This document shows positions 2,574-27,007 of a stretch of 39,144 bases of DNA, piece after piece. Source of the stretch: a virus; the IMG/VR virus record IMGVR_UViG_3300025728_000356, positions 1 through 39,144 of that record. The stretch is one strand, 5' to 3'. The position numbers were made by a program, and so were the translations under genes. A model generated the notes under the pieces. It searched no databases and was not told the DNA's origin. It worked only from the letters and a program-made list of their open reading frames with translations. Numbering within the stretch: the first letter of the stretch is position 1; the number at the start of each line of letters is the position of its first letter.

Positions 2574-2574
2574 G

Positions 2575-9876: not shown

Positions 9877-9892
9877 AACAACTCCGTTCGGA

Positions 9893-10679: not shown

Positions 10680-10784
10680 TGGAAACCCCCTTGAAAGTCG
10701 CTTTCCAAACAAATTGTTTTTTTGCCTGTGGGCAAAGGTCTTTCAAGCGAGCAACACTTTTCGTGTAAATTGACACGGGAAGAC
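10680..10784. promoter_or_regulatory. Divergent intergenic control region with nested inverted repeats
   Basis: This 105-bp gap separates the leftward early operon from the rightward gene at 10785. It holds an 8-bp inverted repeat, CTTGAAAG (10690-10697) against CTTTCAAG (10740-10747), symmetric about 10718. Within it lie GAAAG-TCG-CTTTC (10693-10705) and TTTGCC-TGTG-GGCAAA (10721-10736). The sequence TGTAAA at 10764 could be a rightward -10 element. The layout suggests divergent promoters with a shared operator; no promoter can be proven by eye. Confidence 0.5.
10719..10738 (+). promoter_or_regulatory. Putative late/Mor control dyad, copy 1
   Basis: TTTTTGCC (10719-10726), spacer TGTG, then GGCAAAGG (10731-10738), a 6-bp perfect dyad. 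Related sites occur at 12748, 21019 and 26931, each before a rightward unit. Function is inferred. Confidence 0.45.
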
Positions 10785-11021
10785 ATGGCTATGACCGATC
10801 GAATTGAGAAGCTGGAAGCGCAGGTGAATGCACTGGCGCAAGTAGTTCTTCGCCTTGCGGCGGCTGCAGATGCTCACGGGATCTATCACCCGGAGCAGCT
10901 GCGATCGATTCGCTGGCCTGGATCGCCGCTTGAGACAGAGGCGATCCGGACAATTGAGTGGATTTGCGATGAATTGACAGCGGCACGGGATGTACGCCGA
11001 TCGTGCGAGCTTGTGGGATGA
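10785..11021 (+). CDS. Small rightward protein, unknown
   Basis: A 78-aa protein that begins with a heptad-like helix (I-E-K-L-E-A-Q-V-N-A-L-A-Q-V-V-L-R-L) and continues with H-G-I-Y-H-P-E-Q-L, W-P-G-S-P-L-E-T-E and I-E-W-I-C-D-E-L. This resembles short coiled-coil proteins I associate with Pseudomonas Mu-like phages, though I cannot name a family. Start ATG 10785 has GGGA upstream; 21 further codons upstream are open but would run through the control region. Nearly its whole length lies opposite the minus-strand gene at 10789-11211, so one of the two may be mis-called. Confidence 0.6.
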   Translation: MAMTDRIEKLEAQVNALAQVVLRLAAAADAHGIYHPEQLRSIRWPGSPLETEAIRTIEWICDELTAARDVRRSCELVG

Positions 11022-11211
11022 ACCCCAGGCTGTCGGGGACTGTAGTGCGCGCTGCGGAATGCAACTGGCGGGTTACGTCCGCGAGGTGCCAGGCGATATC
11101 GAACTCAGTGCCTGGAGCAGCTGCAATCAGCTTCTCCAGCTCAAGGCGCCAGGTGTCCATTGCGTGCGGCTGAAGCTCGACTTCGACAAAAATTGGGGTC
11201 GGGTTCGACAT
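10789..11211 (-). CDS. Unknown protein, partly antisense to the gene at 10785
   Basis: A 140-aa frame directly after the BcepMu gp16-like regulator. The first 65 residues look like real protein: F-V-E-V-E-L-Q-P-H-A, then L-E-K-L-I-A-A-A-P-G-T-E-F-D-I-A-W. The remainder is low-complexity and proline/serine-rich, as expected of sequence opposite another gene. ATG 11211 has a TGAGG eight to nine bases upstream and follows the previous stop by ten bases, good signs of real translation. It may be a genuine long overlap, or the true protein may once have ended earlier. No function is known. Confidence 0.5.
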   Translation of the reverse strand: MSNPTPIFVEVELQPHAMDTWRLELEKLIAAAPGTEFDIAWHLADVTRQLHSAARTTVPDSLGFIPQARTIGVHPVPLSIHRKSTQLSGSPLSQAAIQASESIAAAPGDRSREHLQPPQGEELLAPVHSPALPASQFDRS

Positions 11212-11221
11212 GGGAGAAACC

Positions 11222-11431
11222 TCAGGCGGCGGCAGCGGCGGCTTTGAGACCAAGCTTCACGGCGATGTCGTGTGCTTGCCCGTAATGAGCTTTGTCCTGG
11301 CCGTTGAGAACCCGGTATACCGCGTTGCGGCGGTATCCGTTCTCAAGCGCCCAGGTAGTGATGGTTTTACCGGCCTGGCGGAATTGTTCTCGCACCTGGT
11401 CGGGGGTTAGGGCTTTGTTTGCAGATGCCAT
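11222..11431 (-). CDS. BcepMu gp16-family DNA-binding regulator
   Basis: A 69-aa helix-turn-helix protein resembling the BcepMu gp16 family of phage-associated proteins. The diagnostic order is visible: Q-V-R-E-Q-F-R-Q-A-G, then W-A-L-E-N-G-Y-R-R-N-A-V-Y-R-V-L-N-G as the helix-turn-helix, then Y-G-Q-A-H-D-I-A-V-K-L-G-L. The tail is a run of alanines. It diverges from the XRE repressor across a palindromic operator, so it occupies the Ner/Cro-like position. ATG 11431 has CAGGAG nine bases upstream; another 25 codons upstream would run into the operator and are rejected. It probably starts the leftward early transcript. Confidence 0.82.
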   Translation of the reverse strand: MASANKALTPDQVREQFRQAGKTITTWALENGYRRNAVYRVLNGQDKAHYGQAHDIAVKLGLKAAAAAA

Positions 11432-11523
11432 GGCAGCGGCTCCTGTGATGCAAAGATGATTCATACATGTGGCATTAATGATGGTGCCAAATTTGGCACC
11501 AGTCAATGGTTTAGGTGAAATTT
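11432..11523. promoter_or_regulatory. Immunity switch region with perfect 20-bp palindrome
   Basis: The gap between the divergent repressor and gp16-like genes carries TGGTGCCAAATTTGGCACCA at 11482-11501, a perfect 20-bp palindrome and a textbook operator for a dimeric repressor. Related half-sites (TGGCA) recur at 11470 and, overlapping the repressor start codon, at 11525. On the minus strand TTGGCA inside the palindrome could act as a -35 for the leftward early promoter, so binding there would block early transcription. Promoter positions are inferred. Confidence 0.75.
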
Positions 11524-11937
11524 ATGGCACTTGGCGAGCGCCTAAAAACTGAGCGAGAGAGGCTTGGTTTCAACCAAACTGACTTTGCTAGCCTGGTTGG
11601 CGCGTCCAAAAGAACCCAGATCGGCTGGGAGCAGGAACGATCATTCCCTGATATCCAGGCACTGGCGGTCTGGGTTGGCGAAGGTCTGGACGCTATCTAT
11701 GTGCTGACGGGAAACCGGCCAGCGCCGACCGTTTTAGCTTCGGAAAATCGGACGGCGCCGACCGCTTTGGCATCCGACGAGGAAATTCTCTTGGACTCCT
11801 ACCGAGCTTTGGCTGTGCAAGAAAAGCGGCGGCTGCTTGCCTCAGTACTGGCAGGTGACACAGCGCCTTCAAAGGGAATTCAAGTTACAGGTGATGGCAA
11901 CAAAACTGCCGGCCGGGACATCAACGAGAACACTTAG
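11524..11937 (+). CDS. XRE-family phage repressor
   Basis: A 137-aa probable immunity repressor. Residues about 4-62 form an XRE helix-turn-helix: L-G-E-R-L-K-T-E-R-E-R-L-G-F-N-Q-T-D-F-A, then G-A-S-K-R-T-Q-I-G-W-E-Q-E as the recognition part. A threonine/alanine/proline linker with a short repeat (P-A-P-T-V-L-A-S-E and T-A-P-T-A-L-A-S-D) and one more helix follow. The C-terminus ends in G-D-G-N-K-T-A-G-R-D-I-N, a motif repeated in the next gene. There is no peptidase domain, so LexA-like self-cleavage is not expected. ATG 11524 is preferred because TTAGGTGA is correctly spaced; GTG 11515 is the alternative. It faces the 20-bp palindrome, its likely operator. Confidence 0.82.
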   Translation: MALGERLKTERERLGFNQTDFASLVGASKRTQIGWEQERSFPDIQALAVWVGEGLDAIYVLTGNRPAPTVLASENRTAPTALASDEEILLDSYRALAVQEKRRLLASVLAGDTAPSKGIQVTGDGNKTAGRDINENT

Positions 11938-11942
11938 GCAGT

Positions 11943-12314
11943 ATGAGCATGGCTCAGGGGGAAGTTGTGGGTATTGAGGTCAACGGAAATGGCAACCGTG
12001 TGGCAGGCAGGGACTACATTGAAGTAACGATTCGAGCGTGCCGGCGCTGCGAGCAGCGCATAGTTAATCCCGGTGTGAGGATCTGCAACCATTGCCGGGA
12101 GGAGATCGAGGCGCAGAAGTTACGAAATACTCTCAAGGTTCTAGGTTTTTGTCTTTTGCTATGCACCGGCCTTCTGATGCAGTGGAGAGAAAATCACGGA
12201 ACGAAGATGACTCCCGAGGTGTTCGTTGAGACGTTGGGTTTTGCGACCTGCATCATCGGTTTCATCTATGTGGTATGGCACGCCATCAAGATTTGGTTTG
12301 AATCAAAGCAGTAA
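11943..12314 (+). CDS. Zinc-ribbon membrane protein with G-N-G-N-x-x-A-G-R-D motif
   Basis: A 123-aa protein of unknown function. Residues about 13-23 read V-N-G-N-G-N-R-V-A-G-R-D, almost the same as the C-terminus of the repressor just upstream. Next comes a zinc ribbon, C-R-R-C then C-N-H-C (residues about 33-52). Then two membrane helices follow: V-L-G-F-C-L-L-L-C-T-G-L-L-M near 65-78 and a second one near 99-113 around F-A-T-C-I-I-G-F-I-Y-V-V-W. It starts five bases after the repressor stop and is probably cotranscribed with it, so it would be made in lysogens. A lysogenic-conversion or superinfection-exclusion role is a reasonable inference. Confidence 0.7.
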   Translation: MSMAQGEVVGIEVNGNGNRVAGRDYIEVTIRACRRCEQRIVNPGVRICNHCREEIEAQKLRNTLKVLGFCLLLCTGLLMQWRENHGTKMTPEVFVETLGFATCIIGFIYVVWHAIKIWFESKQ

Positions 12315-12368
12315 TAGTTGCGGAACGTGGTCGATTCACTCTGTCGAGTCGAGAAATGGAGATTCACA

Positions 12369-12728
12369 ATGCTTAAAAAACTCTTCCTTGCAGCACTTTT
12401 TGCCTCTATTGCTGCGTGCGCCAGTGTCGGAACGAGCTTTCAGGACGACAATCTGGCTCAGCTCCAACCTGGAGTAACGACGCTCCAGGACGCCGAAAGA
12501 ATCCTAGGCGCGCCCCCATCACAAACGTTGATCGGCGCTGGTGGAAAGAGTGTTTCGATTTGGCGGTACGTTGCGTCAAACGGGATGACCGGCAACACAA
12601 CGATCAAGGAAGCAAGCCTGGTCTTTTCACCTGATGGAAAGTTCACGTATATCTATCAGCTCAACAACGTTTCTCTCGCGCCGCAAGAACGAAAGCGCTT
12701 GATGACACCGCCTCAGGCCAAGAACTGA
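12369..12728 (+). CDS. Small outer-membrane-type lipoprotein (BamE/SmpA-like pattern)
   Basis: A 119-aa lipoprotein. The signal sequence M-L-K-K-L-F-L-A-A-L-F-A ends in the lipobox I-A-A-C, with the lipidated cysteine at about residue 17. The mature part has L-A-Q-L-Q-P-G-V-T-T-L-Q-D-A-E-R-I-L-G-A-P-P, which matches the helix-loop-strand pattern of BamE/SmpA/OmlA-like domains. The rest (I-W-R-Y-V-A, L-V-F-S-P-D-G-K-F-T-Y) supplies the following beta strands. ATG 12369 has GGAG upstream; 17 more codons upstream are open but would remove the signal from the N-terminus. It lies between the repressor pair and the lysis genes and looks like a moron that alters the lysogen's envelope. Confidence 0.75.
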   Translation: MLKKLFLAALFASIAACASVGTSFQDDNLAQLQPGVTTLQDAERILGAPPSQTLIGAGGKSVSIWRYVASNGMTGNTTIKEASLVFSPDGKFTYIYQLNNVSLAPQERKRLMTPPQAKN

Positions 12729-12858
12729 CCTTGGCTCGCGGGGCCTATTTTTGCCCCGTCCAAAATACTCTCCGAGTGGATGCAGCAACACTGATCCGGC
12801 CTGTCACTGACGGGTTGACATGTTGCCGGCCACGGATGGCCACTCTAGGAGAGTTCCA
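12729..12858 (+). promoter_or_regulatory. Intergenic region before the lysis genes, with late-control motif
   Basis: A hairpin CGGGGC (12739-12744) / GCCCCG (12753-12758) with loop CTATTTTT follows the lipoprotein gene. It may terminate that transcript, although no T-run comes after the stem. Overlapping it is TTTTTGCC-CCGT-CCAAAA (12748-12765), copy 2 of the dyad described at 10719. Its core TATTTTTGCC-N-CGTCCAAAA is also found at 21017 with a single mismatch. The rest, to the AGGAG before 12859, holds no gene. I infer a late promoter for the lysis and head genes. Confidence 0.5.
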
Positions 12859-13155
12859 ATGCCGAACACTTGCCCACGTCCAGGTCGCCGCGCCCCGCGC
12901 ATGACCAACTGGACGATGATCACCCTCATTCTGCTCGTCGTGCTCGCGTACATCCGTCCCGAGCAGTTGCCGGTAGTCCTGTATAAAGCTGGCCTGGTCA
13001 CCCTCGGAACCGTGATGGCGTACTGGCTGGACCGGGCGCTCTTTCCAAATGGCCGCCCTGATGATTGCATCGGTGGTATTCACATCGTCGGAGCATGGAT
13101 TCGCCGAGCAATGATCGTCCTGGGCTGCGTTCTCGGCCTGACGCTCGGTCTTTGA
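12859..13155 (+). CDS. Putative holin
   Basis: A 98-aa membrane protein with three hydrophobic segments: residues about 17-32 (M-I-T-L-I-L-L-V-V-L-A-Y), 37-55 (V-V-L-Y-K-A-G-L-V-T-L-G) and 78-97 at the C-terminus. The N-terminus is basic (R-P-G-R-R-A-P-R). The size and topology are those of three-span phage holins, and it directly precedes a transglycosylase and Rz/Rz1, as in B3-type phages. It would open or depolarise the inner membrane at lysis. ATG 12859 has AGGAGAG upstream. The 13 upstream codons in frame are unlikely to be translated. Confidence 0.75.
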   Translation: MPNTCPRPGRRAPRMTNWTMITLILLVVLAYIRPEQLPVVLYKAGLVTLGTVMAYWLDRALFPNGRPDDCIGGIHIVGAWIRRAMIVLGCVLGLTLGL

Positions 13156-13156
13156 T

Positions 13157-13792
13157 ATGCGAGGCCTTCTACTCATCGCGCTGCTTTCGATCAGCGCATG
13201 CCAGCCCGCATTCTCAGAACAGATTCCGCGCAGTGCAGACCAGTACCGGCGAATCCTTGTGCGATCCGCTCATGCCGCATGGGGTCTTGATGCTCCGATT
13301 GCGACGTTGGCTGCACAGGTGCATCAGGAAAGCCGCTGGAACACGCTGGCTCAATCACCCGTCGGTGCTCAGGGACTTGCCCAGTTCATGCCGGACACGT
13401 CCAGTTGGATCGCGCAGCTGTACCCAAAAGCGCTGGGCGCGAATCAACCCTTCAACCCAGGCTGGGCTATGCGGGCCCTGGTCACGTATGACAAATGGCT
13501 CGCAGACCGAATCCAGGCACGCAGCCCTTGCGATAAATGGGCGTTCACTCTGGCCGCTTACAACGGCGGCCTTGGTTGGGTGCAGAAAGATGCCCGGCTA
13601 GCCTCGGCTCAAGGCGCCGATAAGCTTGCCTGGTTCAACTCTGTCGAGCGGCACAACTCGGGCCGCTCGGCTGCCAACTTTCGTGAGAACCGAGCCTACC
13701 CTCGCCAGATCCTGCTGAAGTGGGAGCCGCTTTACATCGGCGCGGGTTGGGGCCTCGGGGTCTGCTCTGGGAGTACTCGCCATGATCCGTAG
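13157..13792 (+). CDS. Lytic transglycosylase (SLT fold) endolysin with export signal
   Basis: A 211-aa peptidoglycan-degrading enzyme. The SLT signature begins at V-H-Q-E-S-R-W-N, with catalytic Glu at about residue 58, followed by S-P-V-G-A-Q-G-L-A-Q-F-M-P and later A-Y-N-G-G-L-G-W, all hallmark blocks of lysozyme-like transglycosylases. The N-terminus is a hydrophobic export signal ending in I-S-A-C, which fits a lipobox, so the enzyme may be exported and even lipidated instead of depending on holin for release. It starts one base after the holin stop and overlaps the next small gene by 11 bases. Confidence 0.88.
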   Translation: MRGLLLIALLSISACQPAFSEQIPRSADQYRRILVRSAHAAWGLDAPIATLAAQVHQESRWNTLAQSPVGAQGLAQFMPDTSSWIAQLYPKALGANQPFNPGWAMRALVTYDKWLADRIQARSPCDKWAFTLAAYNGGLGWVQKDARLASAQGADKLAWFNSVERHNSGRSAANFRENRAYPRQILLKWEPLYIGAGWGLGVCSGSTRHDP

Positions 13793-13970
13793 CCGATTCG
13801 CCCTGACTTACGCCCTGGTTGCTGCGCTTGCGCTTCCTGCACATCGCGCGGCCACATCGATCAACTGGTACAGCCCCGCCGAGCTGTACTGCTCCAAGCT
13901 ACCCCGAGAGCGCACCTGCAAGGCCCTGAAACGGCTCCCTCGGAAGTTCAGGCGTTGGGGCCCCAGATGA
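13782..13970 (+). CDS. Small secreted or membrane-anchored protein in the lysis cassette
   Basis: A 62-aa protein with a hydrophobic N-terminus (Y-A-L-V-A-A-L-A-L-P-A) ending near a plausible signal-peptidase site, then a short basic tail with two cysteines (Y-C-S-K-L and R-T-C-K-A). Overlap with the genes on both sides (11 bases before, ATGA after) supports translation. It recalls small basic genes between endolysin and Rz in related phages. Function unknown. Confidence 0.6.
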   Translation: MIRSRFALTYALVAALALPAHRAATSINWYSPAELYCSKLPRERTCKALKRLPRKFRRWGPR

Positions 13971-14374
13971 GAACAACATTGCTCTGGGGGGCGTTCGTTG
14001 TGCTGCTGATCGGTGCCGTTGCTGCGTTTGTCATCGATGTGAAGAACAACGCATACAACAGCGGGTATGCGGCAGCAGAGAGCAAGTACAAGGACGACCA
14101 GATCGACCAACTGAATGCGTTGATTAGCTCGGCCAAGGACCTGGCGCAACAAGCGAACAAGGCGAGCCAGGAGCTCGGAAAGACAATCAGTGACCGCAAG
14201 CAAGCGGACGCCAAGACCACAAAGGAGATCCGTGATGCGCTTGCTGCAACGAGTAGTACTCGTGCTGGCTGTGTGTTTGACGCTGGTGTCATGCAGCAAC
14301 TCACGACCGCCCGCCAGCGCGCCGCTGAGGCCGCTGCCAGCGGAGTACGCGGCTCAATGCCCGAACCCCGTTGA
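13967..14374 (+). CDS. Rz: Rz-like inner-membrane spanin
   Basis: A 135-aa protein with an N-terminal membrane helix (about residues 5-25) and a long periplasmic coiled-coil region (D-Q-L-N-A-L-I-S-S-A-K-D-L-A-Q-Q-A-N-K-A-S-Q-E-L). This is the form of an i-spanin. It joins the Rz1 lipoprotein encoded inside it to fuse inner and outer membranes at the last step of lysis. The start is ATG 13967, which overlaps the preceding stop. Confidence 0.82.
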   Translation: MRTTLLWGAFVVLLIGAVAAFVIDVKNNAYNSGYAAAESKYKDDQIDQLNALISSAKDLAQQANKASQELGKTISDRKQADAKTTKEIRDALAATSSTRAGCVFDAGVMQQLTTARQRAAEAAASGVRGSMPEPR

Positions 14375-14495
14375 GCCAGTTGATAGCAGCGCAGATGCGG
14401 CTGCTATCGCGCTGAAAGAACTCTATGACCAGTACGGCCTCTGCGCCGGCCGGCATGTTGATTTAGTGAATTGGATTGAGGAAGGCCCGCAATGA
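14235..14495 (+). CDS. Rz1: Rz1-like outer-membrane spanin lipoprotein
   Basis: An 86-aa lipoprotein whose start lies inside Rz in another frame, with a 140-base overlap. Signal M-R-L-L-Q-R-V-V-L-V-L-A-V ends in lipobox L-V-S-C (Cys at residue 20), followed by a proline-rich segment (S-R-P-P-A-S-A-P-L-R-P-L-P) typical of o-spanins. AAAGGAG precedes ATG 14235. It extends well past the end of Rz, so this is the overlapping, not fully embedded, arrangement. Confidence 0.82.
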   Translation: MRLLQRVVLVLAVCLTLVSCSNSRPPASAPLRPLPAEYAAQCPNPVEPVDSSADAAAIALKELYDQYGLCAGRHVDLVNWIEEGPQ

Positions 14496-14653
14496 AATGG
14501 GTGAAGGTGATCTGTAGGGAGACCGGGCGAGTGGCAATCGTGCTGTCCATCACGCTGGTGCTGGGATGGACATTTGGCCTCGGCCTTACGTTGGCCTGGC
14601 GGGTCAATCAACCCAGTGTCGGCCTGGTTGTTGTTCAAGGGAGGCACGCGTGA
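14492..14653 (+). CDS. 53-aa single-span membrane protein
   Basis: A short gene with ATGA overlap to Rz1 and TGATG overlap to the next gene. The protein has a basic start (M-K-W-V-K-V-I-C-R-E), one long membrane helix (V-A-I-V-L-S-I-T-L-V-L-G-W-T-F-G) and a short tail. Such small membrane proteins often sit between Rz1 and the Mu gp25-like gene. Function unknown. Confidence 0.65.
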   Translation: MKWVKVICRETGRVAIVLSITLVLGWTFGLGLTLAWRVNQPSVGLVVVQGRHA

Positions 14654-14973
14654 TGGATTGGGACCTCATCACCAGGGGCGGACAGTTTCTGTTCACCGTG
14701 AGCATTGGTCTGTACTCGCTCGCGGCTTCACGTCGCAGCGCCTCGATCGCTGAAGCCGAAGCGTTAGCCGCACGTCTCAGCAAACAAGACACACGCATCC
14801 TGACGCTTGAGCAGCAGATGCTTCACCTGCCAGACGGGAAGCAATTGGCGGACCTGGCCGGTGACATGAAGGTGATCAAAGCTGAACTCGCCGGGGTGGC
14901 AAGAGAACTCGTCCCTTTAGTTCGGTCTGTTGACCGGATCAACGACTACCTGCTGAATTCGAGGCCGCAATGA
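14653..14973 (+). CDS. DUF2730 family protein (Mu gp25-like)
   Basis: A 106-aa protein with an N-terminal membrane helix (about residues 9-25, F-L-F-T-V-S-I-G-L-Y-S-L) and a coiled-coil (I-L-T-L-E-Q-Q-M-L-H-L-P), matching DUF2730 proteins of Mu-like phages. The short D-L-A-G-D-M-K-V-I-K-A-E-L segment is typical. Its role is unknown. It lies between lysis and packaging genes as Mu gp25 does. ATG 14653 overlaps the preceding stop by one base. Confidence 0.78.
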   Translation: MDWDLITRGGQFLFTVSIGLYSLAASRRSASIAEAEALAARLSKQDTRILTLEQQMLHLPDGKQLADLAGDMKVIKAELAGVARELVPLVRSVDRINDYLLNSRPQ

Positions 14974-15269
14974 GCAAGTACGCCGACTTTTTGAGCGAAG
15001 ATCGCCGCCTGGTGATTCTGCGCATCCTTGCTGAAATGCCTACCTATCGGGCGAACAGTTCCGTTCTGCACACAGTCCTCCAACAGTGGGGGCATGAACC
15101 CAGCCGCGACCAGGTCAAGACAGAGTTGCGCTGGCTTGAGGAACAGGCCCTGGTGAGAATCGATTCGATCGATGACGGCTCCGTATTGCTGGCGAAGCTG
15201 ACAGAGCGCGGGCAGGACGTTGCTGCAGGCCGGGCCAAGGTTGATGGCGTCAAGCGTCCAGGAGCATGA
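14970..15269 (+). CDS. Mu gp26-like winged-helix phage protein
   Basis: A 99-aa protein with a winged-helix pattern: R-R-L-V-I-L-R-I-L-A-E-M-P, then N-S-S-V-L-H-T-V-L, then R-D-Q-V-K-T-E-L-R-W-L-E-E-Q-A-L-V. A wing and L-T-E-R-G-Q-D-V-A follow. It matches the VpaChn25_0724/gp26 group found just before the small terminase gene in Mu-like phages. DNA binding is likely; its target is unknown. ATGA overlap with the preceding gene. Confidence 0.8.
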   Translation: MSKYADFLSEDRRLVILRILAEMPTYRANSSVLHTVLQQWGHEPSRDQVKTELRWLEEQALVRIDSIDDGSVLLAKLTERGQDVAAGRAKVDGVKRPGA

Positions 15270-15270
15270 A

Positions 15271-19039: not shown

Positions 19040-20273
19040 CGCGACCTCGCTACCGTTCAGGGAGCAGAATGAGTTCTTCCGGCGCAAGCTGAATCTGTCC
19101 ACGAATGGCTGGACCGATGTCTACAACCGCGAGCATGACTTCGCCTTCGTTGTCGCTGGGGCGAATCGTGATGACCTGGTCGCGGACTTTCGTACTGCAG
19201 TGGAAAAAGCCATTGCTGACGGCGCAACGCTGGAGTCATTCCGAAAGGACTTCGATCGGATCGTTGCGAAGTACGGCTGGAGCTACAACGGCGGCCGGAA
19301 CTGGCGTAGCCGGGTGATCTACGAAACGAACATGCGTAGCAGCTACATGGCCGGCCGTTACGAACAGTTGATGGCTGTTCGTGAGGAGCGGCCATACTGG
19401 CAGTACTTACACAGTGACGCCGTTGAACATCCCCGACCACTGCATGAGTCTTGGAATGGCTTGATACTGCGGTGGGACGATCCCTGGTGGGAGACTCACT
19501 TTCCAATCAATGCCTGGGGCTGCCAGTGTAGTGTCCGCGCGTTGAGTGATGCGGATCTGGCACGCATGGGCAAGTCTGGGCCTGACCAGGCACCACCGAT
19601 CGTGATGGAGACTCGTACGATCGGCCAGCGCAGTCCTGATGGCCCGCGTGTCGTTGAGGTGCCAGCTGGCATTGATCCAGGGTTTGAGTACACCCCAGGA
19701 CGATCACGGCTTGAGAGCCAAGTGCCGCTTCCGCGACCAACCGAAATCAATGTCCCAACCAGTGCTCCAGGTCTTCCCAACAGAGCTGTCAGTGATCCGC
19801 TGCCGGCGCCGAGGTCGGTGCCTGCTACTCGTGTTCTACCGGAAACGCTGAGTGAGTCTCAGATCACGGATCGCTTCCTGCGAGAGTTCAGCGCGGCGCC
19901 AGAAGCACCGGCTGTTGTTCGAGATGTGATCGGTGAGCGCCTGGTCGTTGGAAAGGAGTTATTCGTCGATAGCAGGACTGGAGCCCTCAATGCAAACAAG
20001 CAAGGTCTGGGGAAATGGCTGCTCATGATCGCGGATGCGCTCAAGCGGCCAGACGAGATCTGGACTCGCATTGACTGGGTTGAGGCGTTGAAGAAGGCTG
20101 TTGCCCGTCGACGCTACCTTGCCCGATTCAAGGTCGACGGTGATGTATCGCCGACTCTCATCGTTGTGGAGGTCGGTACGGACGGCTGGGCCAGCTCGGT
20201 GACACCAGACAATGGAGCCGCCGCTGATGGTGTCCGGCAAGGTATCAGGCTCTACCAGAGACAAGACAAGTAA
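19029..20273 (+). CDS. MuF-type minor head protein with C-terminal PBECR-like nuclease domain
   Basis: A 414-aa protein starting at GTG 19029, chosen because AGGAGG lies six bases upstream; the next ATG upstream would add 28 antisense-like residues. Residues about 90-185 are the MuF head-morphogenesis domain (R-V-I-Y-E-T-N-M-R-S-S-Y, then H-P-R-P-L-H-E-S-W-N-G, then N-A-W-G-C-Q-C-S-V-R). A proline-rich linker follows. Residues about 275-410 resemble a PBECR2-type (phage Barnase/EndoU/Colicin/RelE-like) nuclease: F-V-D-S-R-T-G-A-L, D-E-I-W-T-R-I-D-W, R-R-R-Y-L-A-R-F, I-R-L-Y-Q-R. Such fusions are thought to carry an effector into the host with the DNA; the catalytic residues here are not established. 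Confidence 0.85.
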   Translation: MAVSATSLPFREQNEFFRRKLNLSTNGWTDVYNREHDFAFVVAGANRDDLVADFRTAVEKAIADGATLESFRKDFDRIVAKYGWSYNGGRNWRSRVIYETNMRSSYMAGRYEQLMAVREERPYWQYLHSDAVEHPRPLHESWNGLILRWDDPWWETHFPINAWGCQCSVRALSDADLARMGKSGPDQAPPIVMETRTIGQRSPDGPRVVEVPAGIDPGFEYTPGRSRLESQVPLPRPTEINVPTSAPGLPNRAVSDPLPAPRSVPATRVLPETLSESQITDRFLREFSAAPEAPAVVRDVIGERLVVGKELFVDSRTGALNANKQGLGKWLLMIADALKRPDEIWTRIDWVEALKKAVARRRYLARFKVDGDVSPTLIVVEVGTDGWASSVTPDNGAAADGVRQGIRLYQRQDK

Positions 20274-20842: not shown

Positions 20843-21070
20843 AGCGCCTAGCGTGCGATTCTGCGCTGGTTAGCAGTTAACCGGCGCGCTCTGTATGCCG
20901 ATCAGGTGCCCCTATGCTCAAACGAGCTGAAATCGCGTTTATAAACCCTCCATAACCTGTACGTCGTCGCTGCTCTGCCAGAAAGGCCGTGAACAGGGAA
21001 AAATTACCTCCATTCTTATTTTTGCCGCGTCCAAAAGACTGCAGCTCATCTGCGGCCCGACCATGGGCCC
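20843..21070 (+). promoter_or_regulatory. Gap between gpG and protease: hairpin and late-control motif
   Basis: No convincing gene on either strand in these 228 bp; the only frames are tiny or run antisense into the protease. A strong hairpin with a 10-bp stem (one T-G wobble) lies at 20863-20887 (GCGCTGGTTA / TAACCGGCGC, loop GCAGT), without a T-run; it may end or slow the upstream transcript. At 21019-21036 is TTTTTGCC-GCGT-CCAAAA, copy 3 of the dyad, 35 bases before the protease start. In relatives of D3112/JBD30 type this locus holds anti-CRISPR genes; here it is empty. Confidence 0.6.
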
Positions 21071-22168
21071 ATGAACAGACAACTCGCCATCGCAATCGCC
21101 GCCTGCAGCTTTTCACTGCCGCAACCGGCCGCTGACAACATCATCGAGCTGCAGGTGACGCCTGCAGGGAATTTCACCCCCAGCGACGGTCGTGAGCTGT
21201 CGGTTCCGTCGTGGCACATCGACGGCCGACTCGCTGAGAGGGTGATCGCGCGCTTCGATGCAAAGAAGACGCCTCCGGTCCTCGACTACGAGCACCAGAC
21301 CTTGCTCAAGGAGGACAACGGCCAGCCTGCGCCTGCCGCTGGCTTCTTCAAAGGGCTGACGTGGCGGGACGGCTCTGGCCTCTTTGCGCGTGTTGAGCTC
21401 ACCGCCCGGGCTGCGCAGTTCGTCGCAAATGGCGAGTACCGCTATTTCAGTCCCGTCTTCCTCTTCGACCCTGTTACCGGCGATGTCCTGGACCTGCAAA
21501 TGGGCGCGCTGACAAACACCCCGGCAATCGACGGTATGCAAGCCTTGGGCGAGCGTGCCGCAGCGACTTACGGGCTCTACCTTCAACACGAGGAAACATC
21601 CGTGAACCCACTGCTTAAAGCGGTACTCGTTGCGCTCGGCCTGGCCGAGTCCACCACTGAAGAGACTGCAATCGCGGCGCTCACCGCCCACAACACCACA
21701 CTGCGCCAGGCCCTCGGTCTGGATGGTGATGCAGATAGCAAGGCCTTGCTGGCCGCATGCACGAGCCTGAAGCAACAGGCGAATGCGGCGGCTCAGCCGG
21801 ATCTGAGCAAGTACGTTCCTGTGGGGGTTGTTGATGAGCTGAAGGGTGAAGTTGCGGCCCTGACAGCTCGCCTCGGCGAGCGTGACGACAAGGACACCGA
21901 AAGTCTGATCGCTGCTGCGCTGGAGGACGGCCGACTGCTGAAACCCATGGAAAGCTGGGCTCGTGATCTGGGCAAAAAAGACCGGGCTTCGCTGACTGCC
22001 TACATCAACGCAGCCGCCCCGATCGCTGCACTGTCTTCGACTCAGACCGGGGGCCAGGCACCAGTTGTTGATGATGCTTCTGGGCTGAATCGCGAAGAGC
22101 TGGCTGTCTGCAGCGCCATGGGTATCACCACCGAGGCTTTCAAAGCCGCGAAACCAAAGGAGGCCTGA
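21071..22168 (+). CDS. Prohead protease with fused scaffold (Mu gpI/Z-like)
   Basis: A 365-aa protein. The N-terminal 150 residues match Mu-like prohead proteases: I-A-A-C-S-F, V-T-P-A-G-N-F, W-H-I-D-G, then P-V-L-D-Y-E-H-Q-T (with the catalytic-region His), A-A-G-F-F-K-G-L, Y-R-Y-F-S-P-V-F and L-Q-M-G-A-L-T-N-T-P-A-I-D. The C-terminal half (from about 178) is a helical scaffold that shapes the head and is then digested. No good RBS precedes ATG 21071, but homologues begin the same way. It opens the second head operon, downstream of a late-control motif. Confidence 0.87.
   Translation: MNRQLAIAIAACSFSLPQPAADNIIELQVTPAGNFTPSDGRELSVPSWHIDGRLAERVIARFDAKKTPPVLDYEHQTLLKEDNGQPAPAAGFFKGLTWRDGSGLFARVELTARAAQFVANGEYRYFSPVFLFDPVTGDVLDLQMGALTNTPAIDGMQALGERAAATYGLYLQHEETSVNPLLKAVLVALGLAESTTEETAIAALTAHNTTLRQALGLDGDADSKALLAACTSLKQQANAAAQPDLSKYVPVGVVDELKGEVAALTARLGERDDKDTESLIAAALEDGRLLKPMESWARDLGKKDRASLTAYINAAAPIAALSSTQTGGQAPVVDDASGLNREELAVCSAMGITTEAFKAAKPKEA
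21602..22168 (+). CDS. Probable in-frame scaffold product (Mu Z-like)
   Basis: A second start inside the protease gene: GTG 21602, same frame, preceded by GAGGA at a seven-base spacing. It would give a 188-aa scaffold beginning V-N-P-L-L-K-A-V-L, mostly helical, without the protease domain. In Mu the scaffold Z is made from an internal start in gene I; here the RBS and the domain boundary fall in the matching place. The evidence is the RBS and the analogy. Confidence 0.6.
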   Translation: MNPLLKAVLVALGLAESTTEETAIAALTAHNTTLRQALGLDGDADSKALLAACTSLKQQANAAAQPDLSKYVPVGVVDELKGEVAALTARLGERDDKDTESLIAAALEDGRLLKPMESWARDLGKKDRASLTAYINAAAPIAALSSTQTGGQAPVVDDASGLNREELAVCSAMGITTEAFKAAKPKEA

Positions 22169-22171
22169 TTC

Positions 22172-22576
22172 ATGGCCCTGACTAAAGACCGCAACACAAT
22201 GCGCCGCGAGGGGGTCAAGTACAACGACCCAGTCTCGGGCGCTACACGGATCTTCGCTGGCGCGATCGTCTGTTTGAACGCTGCTGGCGTGGCTGTACCA
22301 GGTAGCACCTCCACAACCTTGAAGGTTCGCGGGATTGCCCAGGAGCAAGTTGACAACCGTGACGGTGTGGATGGTGCGCTATCGATCGAGAGTCGACGTG
22401 GCGTTTTTCAAGTCGACAACAGCTCGGGGGCTGATCAGATCACCCGTGCAGACATCGGCAGTAACGCCTACATCGTCGATGACCAGACTGTTGCGAAAAC
22501 GTCTGCAACCAACACCCGCTCAGTTGCTGGCGCTATCCGTGATGTGGATAGCGGCGGTGTCTGGATCGAATTCTAA
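22172..22576 (+). CDS. Small head protein, probable cement/decoration protein
   Basis: A 134-aa beta-rich protein between scaffold and major capsid. The pattern F-A-G-A-I-V-C-L-N-A-A-G, then V-R-G-I-A-Q-E-Q-V-D-N, then G-V-F-Q-V-D-N-S and V-A-G-A-I-R-D-V-D fits the short beta-barrel structural cement proteins (DUF2190-like) at this locus. It would sit on the capsid surface and stabilise it. GGAGG lies eight bases before the ATG. Family assignment is moderate. Confidence 0.7.
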   Translation: MALTKDRNTMRREGVKYNDPVSGATRIFAGAIVCLNAAGVAVPGSTSTTLKVRGIAQEQVDNRDGVDGALSIESRRGVFQVDNSSGADQITRADIGSNAYIVDDQTVAKTSATNTRSVAGAIRDVDSGGVWIEF

Positions 22577-22599
22577 GCAGTAAGCCCAGGAGCTTTCAG

Positions 22600-23490
22600 A
22601 TGATCATCAACCAGGCCAACCTGCGCCTCCTTTTCACCGGTTTCAAAGCAAGCTTTCAGAATGCCTTCGCTGGTGTCACCCCGGACTTCCAACAGTTCAC
22701 CATGACCGTGAACTCAACCGCCTCTGTTGAGCAATATGGCTGGCTCGGCAACTCGACAGCATTCCGAGAGTGGCTCGGGGACCGGGTGATCCAGAACCTG
22801 CAACTGCACGACTACAGCATCAAGAACAAGTCGTTCGAGAATACTGTTGGTGTTCCTCGCGAAAGCATCGAGGACGATAGCTACGGCATCTTCAGCCCAC
22901 TCATGGCTCAACTGGGCCAGGACGCTGCGAACCACCCGGCCGGCCTGCTGTATGACCTGATGTCGGGCGGTTTTTCGGGCAAGTGCTACGACGGTCAGTA
23001 CTTTTTCGACACCGACCACCCCGTTACGGACAAGAACAACAAGGAGCAATCCGCGAGCAACTTCCAAGGCGGCACCGGTACGGCCTGGTACCTGCTGGAT
23101 ACCACGAGAATCATGAAGCCGCTGATTCTCCAGAATCGTAAGCCATACACGTTCGTCAATCTGGATCAGGACAAGGACGAAAACGTCTTCATGCGCAAGG
23201 AGTACATCTATGGCGCTGATGCCCGCCTGAACGTCGGTTATGGGCTGTGGCAACTGGCTTCCGCATCCAAGGAAGAACTGACCAGCGAAAGCTTCAATGA
23301 CCTGTACGCCCAGATGCAGGCTCGCACCGGCGATCGCGGCAAGAAACTGGGCATTGCTCCCAAGCTCCTGGTCGTTCCGCCTTCGCTCCGCGCGCAAGCT
23401 CTGGAGGTCGTCAAGGCCGACAAGAACGCCAACGGTGCCAGCAACATCAACAAGGACGTGGTCGACGTGCTGTCCACGCCTTGGCTGTAA
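22600..23490 (+). CDS. Major capsid protein (Mu gpT-like)
   Basis: A 296-aa protein matching the Mu gpT major head subunit. Characteristic parts: N-Q-A-N-L-R-L-L-F-T-G-F-K-A-S-F-Q at the N-terminus, then Y-G-W-L-G near residue 47, F-E-N-T-V-G-V-P-R near 85, Y-F-F-D-T-D-H-P-V near 133, and P-K-L-L-V-V-P-P-S-L-R near 256. HK97-fold shell protein. AGGAG precedes the ATG. The length is typical. Confidence 0.92.
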   Translation: MIINQANLRLLFTGFKASFQNAFAGVTPDFQQFTMTVNSTASVEQYGWLGNSTAFREWLGDRVIQNLQLHDYSIKNKSFENTVGVPRESIEDDSYGIFSPLMAQLGQDAANHPAGLLYDLMSGGFSGKCYDGQYFFDTDHPVTDKNNKEQSASNFQGGTGTAWYLLDTTRIMKPLILQNRKPYTFVNLDQDKDENVFMRKEYIYGADARLNVGYGLWQLASASKEELTSESFNDLYAQMQARTGDRGKKLGIAPKLLVVPPSLRAQALEVVKADKNANGASNINKDVVDVLSTPWL

Positions 23491-23500
23491 GGGGGGAATC

Positions 23501-24172
23501 ATGGCCGGACGTAAAAGAAGTGATGCATCTGCAGCCACTGCGGGTGCGGCCGACCAGGCTGCCCAGCTGAGCAGCAACGTCCTGGAGCAAGGGACATCTG
23601 GCGGGAACGCAGTCGTGGAACTGGCTGCGGGCAACACAGGGCAGGATGCCCGCCTGAGCAGCAATGTCCTGGAGCAAGGGGCAACTGGCGGTACCGCAGC
23701 CGTGGACCTGGCTGCGGGCAACATCGGGCAGGATGCCCACCTGGGCAGCAACGCCCTGGAGCAAGGGGCAACTGCCGGTAACGCGGCCGGGGATCTGGCT
23801 GCGGGCAACATCGGGCAGGATGCCCAACTGAGCAGCAATGTCCTGGAGCAAGGGGCAACTGGCGGTACCGCAGCCGTGGACCTGGCTGCGGGCAACACCG
23901 GGCAGGATGCCCAACTGAACAGTAACGATCTGGAGCCAGGTGCAGTTGGCGGGAACAGCAACGGGGCCCAGAGTCTGGCACTGGGTGATGATCCTGAGGC
24001 CGCGCTGTGGGTCCGTTCTGTTTCGGAGCATGGTTTCCGGCGTATCGGCATCAGATTCACTCCTGAAGGGCAGTGCATCCGTATGAGCGATCTAACCGAC
24101 GACCAGGTCAATGCGTTGATCGGCGATCGCAACCTGGTCGTCGAGGCTACCTGGTACGAGGGGCAGAACTGA
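23501..24172 (+). CDS. Mu gp35/HI1506-like head protein with 29-residue tandem repeats
   Basis: A 223-aa protein downstream of the capsid gene. A short basic start (M-A-G-R-K-R-S-D) is followed by four full and one partial copies of a 29-residue repeat (residues about 21-150; consensus S-S-N-V-L-E-Q-G-A-T-G-G then A-A-V-D-L-A-A-G-N-I-G-Q-D). The last 60 residues (W-V-R-S-V-S-E-H-G-F-R-R-I-G-I-R-F, L-T-D-D-Q-V-N-A-L, L-V-V-E-A-T-W) fit the FluMu gp35/HI1506-related domain. The repeats probably form an extended, variable linker. It has AGGGGGG before ATG 23501 and overlaps no neighbour. Its exact role in the head is unknown. Confidence 0.75.
   Translation: MAGRKRSDASAATAGAADQAAQLSSNVLEQGTSGGNAVVELAAGNTGQDARLSSNVLEQGATGGTAAVDLAAGNIGQDAHLGSNALEQGATAGNAAGDLAAGNIGQDAQLSSNVLEQGATGGTAAVDLAAGNTGQDAQLNSNDLEPGAVGGNSNGAQSLALGDDPEAALWVRSVSEHGFRRIGIRFTPEGQCIRMSDLTDDQVNALIGDRNLVVEATWYEGQN
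23561..23968 (+). repeat. 87-bp tandem repeats inside the gp35-like gene
   Basis: Copies begin at 23561, 23648, 23735, 23822 and (partial) 23909, each 87 bp and in frame. Copies 2 and 4 are the most alike at the DNA level, copy 3 the most diverged. This suggests past recombination or slippage, so copy number may vary among related phages. Confidence 0.92.
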
Positions 24173-24173
24173 C

Positions 24174-24692
24174 ATGCAGTACATTACTGCAGTTCAACTG
24201 GCAGAGCGGCCTGGTGCCAAGGAGCTCTCCCAGGTTGCAACCGCCGAGCACTTGCGGATTGTGCCTGCCGGCCTAATGGAAGCGACGCTGAGGGGTGGCG
24301 ATCGTTCCGCCTGGACAGCCGACGAGCTGGTTGCTGCAGATGATGCGATGCAACGGATCGAGGACACTGTCAGCCAGGCCGAGAGCTTGGTTGACGGCTA
24401 CCTCGCCCGGCGCGGTTACAACCTGCCGCTCAACCCAGTACCTGACCTGGTCACCGGTTGGGTACGTGATATCGCTCGCTACCTTCTGCACAAGGATCGC
24501 GGCGGTAAAGAGGACAGTGATCCGATTGTCAGAGCCTACAAGGACGCATTGAAGTTCCTGGACCTCACTGCAAACGGTCGATTCAGCCTCGGCGGCAACG
24601 ATCCAATCCAGACAAATCCGAACAGCCTCGACGTGCGCTTCGACGCGAGCCCAAACGTCTTCAGCCGCGACCAACTGAGGTCGTTCCGATGA
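24174..24692 (+). CDS. DUF1320 head-tail connector (Mu gp36-like)
   Basis: A 172-aa protein of the DUF1320 family: Y-I-T-A-V-Q-L at the start, D-D-A-M-Q-R-I-E-D near 58, V-D-G-Y-L-A-R-R-G-Y near 75, and D-I-A-R-Y-L-L near 99. It is a mostly helical connector that joins head and tail. It begins one base after the preceding stop and overlaps the next gene by ATGA. Confidence 0.87.
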   Translation: MQYITAVQLAERPGAKELSQVATAEHLRIVPAGLMEATLRGGDRSAWTADELVAADDAMQRIEDTVSQAESLVDGYLARRGYNLPLNPVPDLVTGWVRDIARYLLHKDRGGKEDSDPIVRAYKDALKFLDLTANGRFSLGGNDPIQTNPNSLDVRFDASPNVFSRDQLRSFR

Positions 24693-25129
24693 CCTCGGCG
24701 CCGTTCAGCACCCGCGTCGTGATCGACCGCCTTACCGCTGAGGTGCCGGAGTTTCAGATCATCGCCGGCACTGCCGAGTACGGGACAATCATGAGCCTGC
24801 GAGAGTTCAGGGCTGACAGCGCCTACGTTCTGCTTGCAAGGGAGCGCGCGGACGGCGAAGCGCCTAAGGGAGGTCGACAGCGGGCTCTGTCGACGTTCGG
24901 CGTAGTCATCGCGGTCCGCAACTATCGGGATCGAATGGGTGGTGAGTCTCTGGAAGAGATCAGTTCTCTCATCGGCAAGTCGCGGGCGGCGCTCATGGGC
25001 TGGTCACCACCAGTCAATGGCGGTCGGCCCTGCAAGTGGATTCAAGGTGATGTCCTGGACTTCGACAACGAAACGTTGCTCTGGTCCGACGTTTACGAAA
25101 CTCAACACTTCATCGGGGTAGCCCCATGA
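24689..25129 (+). CDS. Tail terminator/completion protein (Mu gp37-like)
   Basis: A 146-aa protein in the gp37 position. It has a mixed alpha/beta pattern with F-G-V-V-I-A-V-R-N-Y near residue 72 and F-D-N-E-T-L-L-W-S-D-V-Y near 130, similar to Mu gp37 and other tail terminators that cap the tube where it meets the head. Overlap with both neighbours (ATGA) supports it. Confidence 0.8.
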   Translation: MTSAPFSTRVVIDRLTAEVPEFQIIAGTAEYGTIMSLREFRADSAYVLLARERADGEAPKGGRQRALSTFGVVIAVRNYRDRMGGESLEEISSLIGKSRAALMGWSPPVNGGRPCKWIQGDVLDFDNETLLWSDVYETQHFIGVAP

Positions 25130-25293
25130 GCAGCAAGAAAGAAAAGGTCGTGCTGATCGCCGACCACAAGCACGCCGGCCAGGCCTTTGTCTCAGGCGAC
25201 TCGATTGAGGTCGACGAGCATGAGAGGGCCTTTTTGATCCGTCACAAGAAGATTGCCGGCACAGTAAAGCCAGCGTCTGCACCACAGGAGTAA
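25126..25293 (+). CDS. 55-aa conserved tail-region protein (DUF7210-like)
   Basis: A short beta-rich protein: K-V-V-L-I-A-D-H-K-H-A-G-Q, G-D-S-I-E-V-D-E-H-E-R-A-F-L-I-R. The pattern of a small D-H-x-H-A-G box followed by S-I-E-V is common in Mu-like phages at this place. ATGA overlap with gp37; it ends four bases before the tail tube gene. Function unknown. Confidence 0.72.
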   Translation: MSSKKEKVVLIADHKHAGQAFVSGDSIEVDEHERAFLIRHKKIAGTVKPASAPQE

Positions 25294-25297
25294 CACC

Positions 25298-26032
25298 ATG
25301 CTCGTATCTCTCCAGGGCAAAATCTGGCTTGCTGAGCGCAGCGCGCAAGGCAAGTATGAGAAACCGGTCTGGGTCGGCAACGCCCCTACAGCCACGTTGC
25401 AGCTCGCCACCGAAACCACCAAGAAGACCGAGAGCTACTCCGGCAACCGCCTGCAGATCGGCGAGCTGGATCGCGGCAAGACAGCCACTCTCAACCTGAC
25501 GCTCGATGAATGGCTGCCCTCGAACCTGGTTCTCGGACTGTACGCAACCCAGTCGGACATCGTCGCCGGGACAGTAACTGCGGAGCCACTGCCTGCAGAG
25601 CTGAAAGCCGGTGAGTTCATTCGGCTGGACCATCCTTTCGTGTCCGACGTTGTGCTGACCGCTGCCGCGCCATTGGTGGTTGGTACCGACTACCGAATGG
25701 AGTCCGCACCTGGTGGTCTGATCGAGATCCTCAAGGACACCAGCGCGGCCGTGAAAGCCGCGTATTCATACGAGAGCGTCACGTCCCTGGCCATGTTCAC
25801 TGACAGGCCTCCAGAGCGCTGGCTGTTCCTCGATGGCATCAACACCGAAACCGGTGAGTCGGTCCTGGTCGACCTGTACCGTTGCAAGTTCAACCCGGTC
25901 GGTGACCTGGGCCTGATCCATGACGAGTACGGTTCCCTCGCACTCACCGGATCGGTGCTGTTCGACACGTTGAATGCCCGTGAAGCCAACCTCGGCGGCT
26001 ACGGGCGCATGGTCAGCAAGAAGGCTGCCTGA
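25298..26032 (+). CDS. Major tail tube protein (B3-like)
   Basis: A 244-aa beta-rich protein. Signs of a tail tube: V-W-V-G-N-A-P, the L-N-L-T-L-D-E-W segment, an immunoglobulin-like or barrel pattern of strands, and the C-terminal L-D-G-I-N-T-E-T-G and F-N-P-V-G-D-L. It precedes the chaperone and tape-measure genes. No contractile sheath gene accompanies it, so the tail is a flexible, non-contractile one. GGAG precedes the ATG. Confidence 0.82.
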   Translation: MLVSLQGKIWLAERSAQGKYEKPVWVGNAPTATLQLATETTKKTESYSGNRLQIGELDRGKTATLNLTLDEWLPSNLVLGLYATQSDIVAGTVTAEPLPAELKAGEFIRLDHPFVSDVVLTAAAPLVVGTDYRMESAPGGLIEILKDTSAAVKAAYSYESVTSLAMFTDRPPERWLFLDGINTETGESVLVDLYRCKFNPVGDLGLIHDEYGSLALTGSVLFDTLNAREANLGGYGRMVSKKAA

Positions 26033-26034
26033 TC

Positions 26035-26526
26035 ATGGCCCAGCGAGCGGAAGCAAGGCCGCAGGCTCCCGAGGTGGGAGCCGATGACCTCAACGTGTTG
26101 CACCCGGATCTACCTGCGAAGATTGCTGGTCGATCGATCGTAGTGCGTGAGTACGGTTTCATTGAAGGACTGAGGCTGCGACCGCTGCTGCAGCCATTCC
26201 TTGATGATTTGCACGCAGTCACCGTTGGCGGCGGCCTGCCTGAGTTGGAGGGGATCGTTGCCATCATCGGGAAGCACGCAGACGCTATCTCTGAGGCGAT
26301 ATGTGTCGCAACCGGCGTAGAGCTCGAATGGCTTGAAAGTTTGAGCCAGGACGATGGCCAGCACCTGCTGATGCTCTGGTGGTCAGCCAACGGCCCTTTC
26401 TACATTCGCAGCGTGTTCCAACGGATCGTCGCGGAAAGGGCCGTGACAACCCGTCACGCTGGGGAAGCATCTACGCAACCCTTATCGGAGCAGGATACGG
26501 CGACGCCGACTCGATCGGGCGAATGA
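26035..26526 (+). CDS. Tail assembly chaperone, DUF6631-like (short product)
   Basis: A 163-aa protein between tail tube and tape measure. The folded part (about 15-135) has V-L-H-P-D-L-P, I-V-V-R-E-Y-G-F-I-E-G-L-R-L, and L-L-M-L-W-W-S-A-N-G-P-F-Y, as in DUF6631 phage proteins. Its last 25 residues are low-complexity and polar (S-T-Q-P-L-S-E-Q-D-T-A-T), while the -1 frame over the same bases looks more like protein. It is therefore the G-like short form if a frameshift exists. The order chaperone, then tape measure is standard in siphophages. Confidence 0.78.
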   Translation: MAQRAEARPQAPEVGADDLNVLHPDLPAKIAGRSIVVREYGFIEGLRLRPLLQPFLDDLHAVTVGGGLPELEGIVAIIGKHADAISEAICVATGVELEWLESLSQDDGQHLLMLWWSANGPFYIRSVFQRIVAERAVTTRHAGEASTQPLSEQDTATPTRSGE

Positions 26527-26666
26527 CCGAGCGCCAGATCCTGCTTCACTTCGACTGTTACTGGCGCCTACGGAAGTTTCAGCGGGCCGAACAACTGATT
26601 GACATGAACTTGGCATTCGCAGGCGGTGAAGAAGCCGAAAAGCGGCTATCTGATCTGACCAAGTGA
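26379..26666 (+). CDS. Second chaperone frame; frameshift extension or coupled small gene
   Basis: This -1 frame overlaps the previous gene. From about 26436 it reads R-G-K-G-R-D-N-P-S-R-W-G-S-I-Y-A-T-L-I-G-A-G-Y, then M-T-E-R-Q-I-L-L-H-F-D-C-Y-W-R-L-R, a natural-looking helical domain. Two readings are possible: a programmed -1 shift making a G-T type fusion, or independent initiation at ATG 26523 (ATGA overlap with the previous stop; 47 aa). GTG 26379 has no clear RBS. I favour expression as a fusion, but no classical slippery heptamer is visible. Confidence 0.6.
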   Translation: MVSQRPFLHSQRVPTDRRGKGRDNPSRWGSIYATLIGAGYGDADSIGRMTERQILLHFDCYWRLRKFQRAEQLIDMNLAFAGGEEAEKRLSDLTK

Positions 26667-26755
26667 AATGGGAAACCTCTGAAAAAAAGGGCTTGAAAAT
26701 GGTGAAACACTAGTGGTGCGGCGAATGGCCCGCGTCTACTAAAAGGTGAATCACC

Positions 26756-26905
26756 ATGAAATTGATCTTCAAGTCACTGAAACACATGCTCAAGAGCAAG
26801 GCTCGTACGGCTGCGGAGCAGCATAAACAGGAGCAACAGGAAAAAGTGGATCGAGCAATCCAGGCCATGGATGAGTTTCTGGAGATCTACAAGCAACATC
26901 AGTAA
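26756..26905 (+). CDS. 49-aa highly charged protein, unknown (moron-like)
   Basis: A short gene with a good RBS (AAAGGTGA) five to six bases before ATG 26756. The protein has a basic amphipathic start (M-K-L-I-F-K-S-L-K-H-M-L-K-S-K) and a charged coiled-coil-like helix (E-Q-H-K-Q-E-Q-Q-E-K-V-D-R-A-I). It stands alone, 89 bases after the chaperone and directly before a strong terminator, which breaks the usual chaperone-tape measure link. This layout is that of an accessory gene. Function unknown. Confidence 0.72.
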   Translation: MKLIFKSLKHMLKSKARTAAEQHKQEQQEKVDRAIQAMDEFLEIYKQHQ

Positions 26906-26910
26906 CACGT

Positions 26911-26936
26911 CGCCGCCCTCGGGCGGCTTCTTTTTG
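26911..26936 (+). terminator. Rho-independent terminator after the 49-aa gene
   Basis: GCCGCC-CTCG-GGCGGC stem-loop (26912-26927) followed by TTCTTTTT (26928-26935), six bases after the stop codon. This is a classical intrinsic terminator and the clearest in the window. Confidence 0.85.
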
Positions 26937-26948
26937 CCTGGGCAAAAG
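26931..26948 (+). promoter_or_regulatory. Putative late-control dyad, copy 4 (before tape measure)
   Basis: TTTTTGCC-TG-GGCAAAAG; the arms TTTTGCC/GGCAAAA are a perfect 7-bp dyad with a two-base spacer. Its T-run is shared with the terminator just upstream. It would restart transcription for the tape-measure and tip genes after that terminator. Confidence 0.5.
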
Positions 26949-27007
26949 TACGCTGGGCGCCCATTACGCGATCCTGCAGGGACTTTCCACTGCATGTATC
27001 GATCCTC

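Follow-up and report, generated by a model that had tools for sequence, protein, structure and literature searches.

How does a Mu-like phage with a single gene of the Mor/C activator family turn on its late genes? We examined this question in a 39-kilobase (kb) IMG/VR record of a B3-type Mu-like phage (IMGVR_UViG_3300025728_000356; 39,144 nucleotides, all of which is referred to here as the window). A preliminary description had reported a dyad containing the octamer TTTTTGCC at 10719, 12748, 21019 and 26931, each copy preceding a rightward gene or operon, and had proposed that these were late-promoter sites of the single Mor. Our analysis strongly supports this proposal for 12748, 21019 and 26931, because these sites occupy conserved slots, covary with Mor, have a -10 element at a fixed distance without a -35, and fit the transcribed clusters of phage Fc02; it does not support it for 10719.

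We consider it highly probable that the three sites are promoters (i, ii and iii) of one late regulon governed by one Mor, with boxes resembling the Mu promoter Pm, an overlap between promoter iii and a terminator, and a leaderless protease message from promoter ii. This view draws on the top matrix scores of the three sites, their occurrence in these slots only, their tracking of Mor, their likeness within each phage and the spacing of an nAnnnT element, and on the lack of a sigma-70 consensus, the spacing to the protease ATG, the weak Shine-Dalgarno pairing there, the terminator overlap, the Fc02 clusters and the Pm geometry. In the proposed mechanism the leftward early operon, of which mor is the last gene, would supply the only late activator. 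A Mor dimer would bind an 18-base-pair (bp) imperfect dyad, TTTTYG..CRAAAA, inside a 21-bp element centred near -43.5, and would recruit the host sigma-70 RNA polymerase to a degenerate -10 (nAnnnT) without a -35, as Mu Mor does at Pm. Promoter i would then serve lysis and packaging, promoter ii the head protease and head genes, and promoter iii the tape measure and tail. Promoter iii would be seated on the terminator of unit ii, with the U-tract as its left half-site, while promoter ii would be positioned so that the transcript opens with the protease AUG itself and has no leader.

Occurrence of the proposed Mor boxes

All four sequences quoted in the preliminary description are present at their positions, and those at 12748 and 21019 share the near-identical core TATTTTTGCC[C/G]CGTCCAAAA, with one difference in 20 bases. 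The octamer itself is not confined to non-coding gaps: there are seven copies in the window (0.96 expected), three of them within coding sequence at 12397, 21971 and 37413, and octamer counts by themselves were rejected as evidence. The extended pattern TTTTTGCC-N(2-5)-CAAA is rare, with 3 occurrences in the window and 0.04 expected.

An ungapped matrix of 21 columns was built from the regions 5' of the holin, protease and tape measure genes in 80 IMG/VR loci (given L numbers below) and in phages Fc02, B3, H72, JBD25 and PM105; for scoring the window it was rebuilt without the window. In its consensus, TTTTCGCCCCGTCCAAAAGAC, TTTT and AAA are almost invariant, G6 is common and columns 5-14 vary. 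The three highest scores in the window (23.5-30.4) fall at 12748, 21019 and 26931; after these and their own reverse strands the next is 13.4, and the best scores of 300 Markov-resampled sequences had a mean of 12.9 and a maximum of 21.0. Fc02 has exactly three positions at 27.6-30.2, followed by 11.0. Across 1.76 megabases of related loci, distinct scores of at least 19 are confined to the holin, protease and tape slots; the extra scores listed at this level are tape-measure sites unanchored by protein search (some on both strands) and L056:3329, which precedes a lysis-region gene. B3-type relatives have a site in all three slots, no close relative with the same Mor type lacks one, and the matrix scan found no equally good copy inside coding sequence in the window or its relatives. 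A pattern scan of viral contigs with TTTTTGCCNCGTCCAAAA found 27 stretches, of which all those in recognisably Mu-like loci precede a holin, protease or tape measure gene. The remainder, which have no tested homologue, look like chance occurrences; L228, which comes from the same contig as L023, contains none of the tested genes in its 2.9 kb. Genome contigs scanned with the protease gave mainly distant Firmicutes relatives and were not used.

Association of box class with Mor

Sites of one phage are alike even though they lie kilobases apart and precede unrelated genes: mismatches over the ten core columns average 1.86 among sites of one phage and 4.74 between phages. Across phages the class of box follows the recognition segment of Mor (Table 1). 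The terminase of L010 is 86% identical to that of the window, its Mor only 32%, and its boxes are B3-like; in L027 the corresponding values are 85% and 73%, and the boxes are window-like. Among 23 genomes, motif distance correlated with Mor distance at r=0.79, and the partial correlation remained at 0.69-0.79 given any of 15 other phage proteins, which include transposase A, an IclR-type helix-turn-helix (HTH) protein, a CII-like protein, ner, the repressor and head proteins. These proteins are the proper control, as permutation p-values disregard relatedness.

Table 1. Mor recognition segments and the boxes that accompany them
Mor segment	Phages	Box
TENA(I/V)Y	window phage, L006, L027	TTTTTGCC..GTC(C)AAA
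TPSSIY	Fc02, L012	TTTTCGC..TTCCAAAA
TEDWIY	B3, L010, L014	TTTTCGG..CCGAAAA
T(T/V)RAIY	L047, L066	TTTTGCCC.CGTTCAAAA
TVQAIY	L064	TTTTAACCCTCGTTAAA
SEGLIY	PM105	TTTTCGGTTGCGACAAAG

These associations also bear on the alternative that another regulator, either a host factor or a different HTH protein of the phage, binds the three sites while Mor acts elsewhere. Mor binding is itself inferred, which leaves room for such a regulator, and weak residual correlations (0.22-0.25) with the repressor, the IclR-type HTH protein and transposase A persist after removing Mor. However, the other tested proteins all show a much weaker correlation with the motif than Mor does (r 0.02-0.59), the motif class follows the recognition-helix class of Mor across phages that are otherwise similar in their genes, and the promoter geometry agrees with Mu Pm, all of which makes a different regulator very improbable. 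If Mor is the reader, this natural series of Mor proteins and matching boxes renders the DNA-recognition code of the Mor/C family directly testable.

The protease box is absent from three loci with a very different Mor (upstream of L029 16266, L046 10716 and L065 15534). These have in common CTGAACCCC(C/T)TCA at about the distance of the box, together with GCCGCCGACACTGGCGGC-ATG, and possibly represent another Mor specificity.

Promoter architecture

Downstream of the box, strong conservation across 52 non-redundant sites is limited to two bases, an A (47/52) and, four bases on, a T (47/52), which lie 20 and 24 bases past the 21-mer; the exceptions are mostly one-base shifts at proteases. This pair is a -10 element, nAnnnT, whose first position is almost never T and which lies 17-19 bp past the box. 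Neither a sigma-70 consensus promoter nor a -35 was found at the sites. Each site thus has a -10 without a -35 and a conserved dyad centred ~32 bp upstream of that -10, from which +1 can be predicted. In Mu Pm the Mor dyad extends from -51 to -36 (centre -43.5) and consists of two 5-bp inverted repeats flanking a G/C-rich hexamer, with a -10 present and a -35 absent (PMC4287176, PMC4390567). When the Pm scale is laid on the sites described here, their -10 elements fall at most one base from the place predicted.

At many holin and tape promoters of relatives (e.g. L006, L007 and L106), alternating GCGCGCGCG runs occupy the 18-bp spacer between box and -10; they are absent in the window and represent a possible DNA-shape or melting feature. 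Hairpins at the 5' ends of late transcripts were also considered, and no claim is made for them: folds of +1 to +40 are ordinary (mean z -0.4 for holin and +0.3 for tape).

The start of the head protease

Among the 33 non-redundant relatives whose protease site is genuine, the ATG lies without exception 30 bp (27 cases) or 31 bp (6 cases) past the 21-mer, unlike the distance from box to holin, which varies widely. By Pm geometry, +1 is predicted to coincide with the A of this ATG or to lie at most one base away, with a pyrimidine at -1. Shine-Dalgarno pairing at protease starts averages -2.1 kcal/mol, compared with -7.3 kcal/mol at other genes in Fc02, -6.7 in PM105 and -6.0 in the window, and is weaker than -3 kcal/mol in 82% of protease starts versus 4-13% of control genes. 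The first 40 nucleotides of the gene are unusually unstructured (z +1.54 versus +0.10, +0.22 and -0.15 for controls from the same three phages). The protease therefore presents two features expected of leaderless mRNAs, usually no Shine-Dalgarno sequence and an unstructured 5' coding end. Together with the fixed ATG spacing and Pm geometry, these lead us to predict that the protease/scaffold mRNA is leaderless, with its 5' end at the AUG, and that this message is conserved. The B3 record (L106, AF232233) has the protease annotated from a CTG at 19857, one base past the Mor box; an in-frame ATG 30 bases on, at 19887, agrees with all relatives and suggests that the annotated start is mis-set.

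In most relatives an inverted repeat around the protease -10 (window ~21047-21070) reaches the ATG or stops close to it; its stem averages 5.7, versus 3.3 in shuffles. One example is GCCGCC-TCACTCT-GGCGGC-ATG, and the arms differ between lineages yet remain complementary. Mu gene I has CTGCTCA...TGAGCAG immediately before its ATG. Such repeats would fit an alternative in which the protease message is not leaderless: its 5' end would lie further upstream, and a hairpin in the RNA next to the AUG would control translation. We think this unlikely, because nAnnnT is equally spaced at the holin and tape promoters, which have no such repeat, and because the Pm-geometry +1 falls on an ATG whose spacing is fixed to one base; moreover, the repeat may act solely on read-through RNA from unit 1, perhaps by blocking its translation.

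A single-copy element, TTTATAAA (usually GCGTTTATAAAC), lies near the genome centre, 60-97 bp before the Mor box of the protease, in every one of the 42 B3-type relatives whose sequence extends far enough (window 20938-20945, Fc02 20018, B3 19752). Its varying distance to the box makes it unlikely to be a promoter element. In Mu the corresponding interval, from gene G to gene I, contains the strong gyrase site, and TTTATAAA is by analogy a candidate gyrase site.

The terminator at the tape site and transcription in Fc02

At the tape site of the window a terminator hairpin (-14.7 kcal/mol) abuts box 3, and its U-tract is the left TTTT of the box, so that a terminator tail would serve also as an activator half-site. 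Hairpins of -6 kcal/mol or better abut the tape box in 8/9 distinct sequences. This overlap, and the hairpins that precede the holin site in some relatives, might suggest that the T-runs are mere terminator tails and the dyad incidental. That explanation is hardly credible, since a hairpin next to the box is very rare at protease sites (5% at the same threshold) and all three sites conserve the right half of the box and the distance to the -10.

According to published RNA-seq of Fc02 (PMC9936078), three rightward clusters are transcribed after induction. Of these, the first begins with the holin-endolysin genes and continues into the packaging genes, and the second contains mostly structural genes and has a rho-independent terminator as its apparent limit. 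The starts of these clusters fit the three box positions.

Several points weigh against a three-promoter Mor regulon. Mor binding, activation, the start sites and leaderless translation are all deduced from sequence, as is the sufficiency of Mor for all three units; the matrix was seeded with the motif of the preliminary description; and the protease starts of L040, L047 and L051 carry some Shine-Dalgarno-like pairing. In addition, the Fc02 clusters do not follow quite the same time course, as a single activator by itself would lead one to expect; the differences in timing could reflect box affinity.

The site at 10719

The site at 10719 has the same octamer and orientation as the others, which is the argument for a single Mor regulon of all four. 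We consider this very improbable. The resemblance is limited to TTTTTGCC...GGCAAA, and the matrix score is at chance level (9.5 on the + strand and 13.3 on the - strand). The gap in which it lies (10713-10784) corresponds to Fc02 9836-9962, directly upstream of the olg1 region. The Fc02 account (PMC9936078) places pC1, which is active in the lysogen, just upstream of olg1, and gives a third, leftward promoter as proposed in B3 between open reading frames 15 and 16. In the lysogen the early operon, mor included, is off. Furthermore, the homologous stretch, CCAAACAAATAGCTGTTTTCACC(A/G)TTGGCAAAG, is near-identical in Fc02 and B3 despite their differing Mor proteins and Mor boxes. The site was therefore rejected as a member of the regulon and is likely to be part of a control element for early or lysogeny transcription. 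A conserved element, CCAAACAAAT...GGCAAAG, extends over window 10719-10784 (Fc02 ~9870-9960), with the CII-like gene running leftward on one side of it and the olg1-like region rightward on the other.

Genome context

The nearest GenBank records are Pseudomonas phages, including H72, Fc22, Fc02 and JBD25, with ~75-77% identity over the covered part. The leftward early operon runs from 10712 to 1100 and encodes, in order, the CII-like protein, the IclR-type HTH protein, transposases A and B, GemA and Mor. Mor matches Pfam family PF08765 (2.2e-32) and the Mu Mor structure 1RR7 (E 1.2e-6, alignment 51-111), and has the Mor domain and C-terminal HTH of the Mor/C family. From 12.8 kb rightward follow the holin, endolysin, terminase, portal, protease, capsid, tape measure and tail genes (Table 2). 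In relatives, mor ends ~124 bases from the left end of the phage; an acyltransferase-like gene at window 1-972 (stretch 1-975) is therefore probably host DNA flanking the prophage end.

Table 2. Features of the window; coordinates of the -10-like elements are derived from the box starts
Feature	Coordinates	Strand	Remarks
mor	1100..1465	-	sole Mor/C-family gene; final gene of leftward early operon
GemA	2007-2672		leftward early operon
Transposase B	5739-6917		leftward early operon
Transposase A	6914-8677		leftward early operon
Site 1 of preliminary description	10719..10738	+	not a Mor box; element of early/pC1 gap; chance-level score
ner-like HTH gene	11222-11506	-	half of switch
Repressor-like gene	11515-11937	+	other half of switch
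Mor box 1, lysis/packaging unit, TTTTTGCCCCGTCCAAAATAC	12748..12768	+	score 30.4; same slot in relatives
-10-like AACACT	12787..12792	+	18 bp past box 1; predicted start ~12799-12800
Holin, opening gene of unit 1	12859..13155	+	PHROG 1528 holin 7e-31; Shine-Dalgarno AGGAGAG
Mor box 2, head unit, TTTTTGCCGCGTCCAAAAGAC	21019..21039	+	score 28.3
-10-like GACCAT	21059..21064	+	19 bp past box 2; predicted start 21071 = A of ATG
Head maturation protease/scaffold	21071..22168	+	PHROG 328 4e-111; predicted leaderless mRNA
Intrinsic terminator of head unit	26909..26935	+	U-tract overlaps left half of box 3
Mor box 3, tail unit, TTTTTGCCTGGGCAAAAGTAC	26931..26951	+	score 23.5
-10-like GATCCT	26970..26975	+	18 bp past box 3; predicted start ~26982-26983
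Tape measure, opening gene of unit 3	27008..30556	+	PHROG 2335 2e-122

Comparison with known systems

The Fc02/B3-type phages (Beetrevirus) share the gene order of the window and have three rightward clusters with starts that match the three Mor boxes; the consulted part of the Fc02 account (PMC9936078) mentions neither a late promoter nor a Mor site nor a leaderless start. No late promoter of a B3-type phage is named in the Mu-like phage literature searched, a scope that leaves aside the original B3 and D3112 genome papers, which could hold an earlier proposal. As far as that literature shows, late control in Pseudomonas phages of the B3 type is mapped here for the first time at the level of individual sites.

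The closest parallel is Mor and Pm of Mu (PF08765; 1RR7; PMC4287176, PMC4390567), where a Mor-family protein likewise closes the early operon and the promoter likewise has a 16-18-bp dyad with 5-bp arms and a G/C-rich spacer, centred near -43.5, and a -10 without a -35. The boxes of the window differ in sequence from Pm, and Mu Mor serves that one promoter, making C, whereas the Mor of the window would serve three late promoters directly. The Mu late promoters Plys, PI, PP and Pmom, activated by C, resemble the window sites in that several share one dyad, one precedes the lysis genes and one precedes gene I (PMC4287176). In the window phage the sites would instead be read by Mor, the third promoter precedes the tape measure, and no equivalent of Pmom was found. 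The second Mor/C-family gene of a Mu-style relay is also absent, since any record that had a Mor-family match had just one; for this reason the relay from Mor to C appears to be reduced to one step. We think it reasonably likely that the Mu relay has been collapsed in this way across the B3-type family, with a single Mor step acting on exactly three late promoters, Mor and box co-evolved into at least six specificity classes, and a protease promoter whose geometry fixes the mRNA start at the AUG, making a leaderless structural operon throughout.

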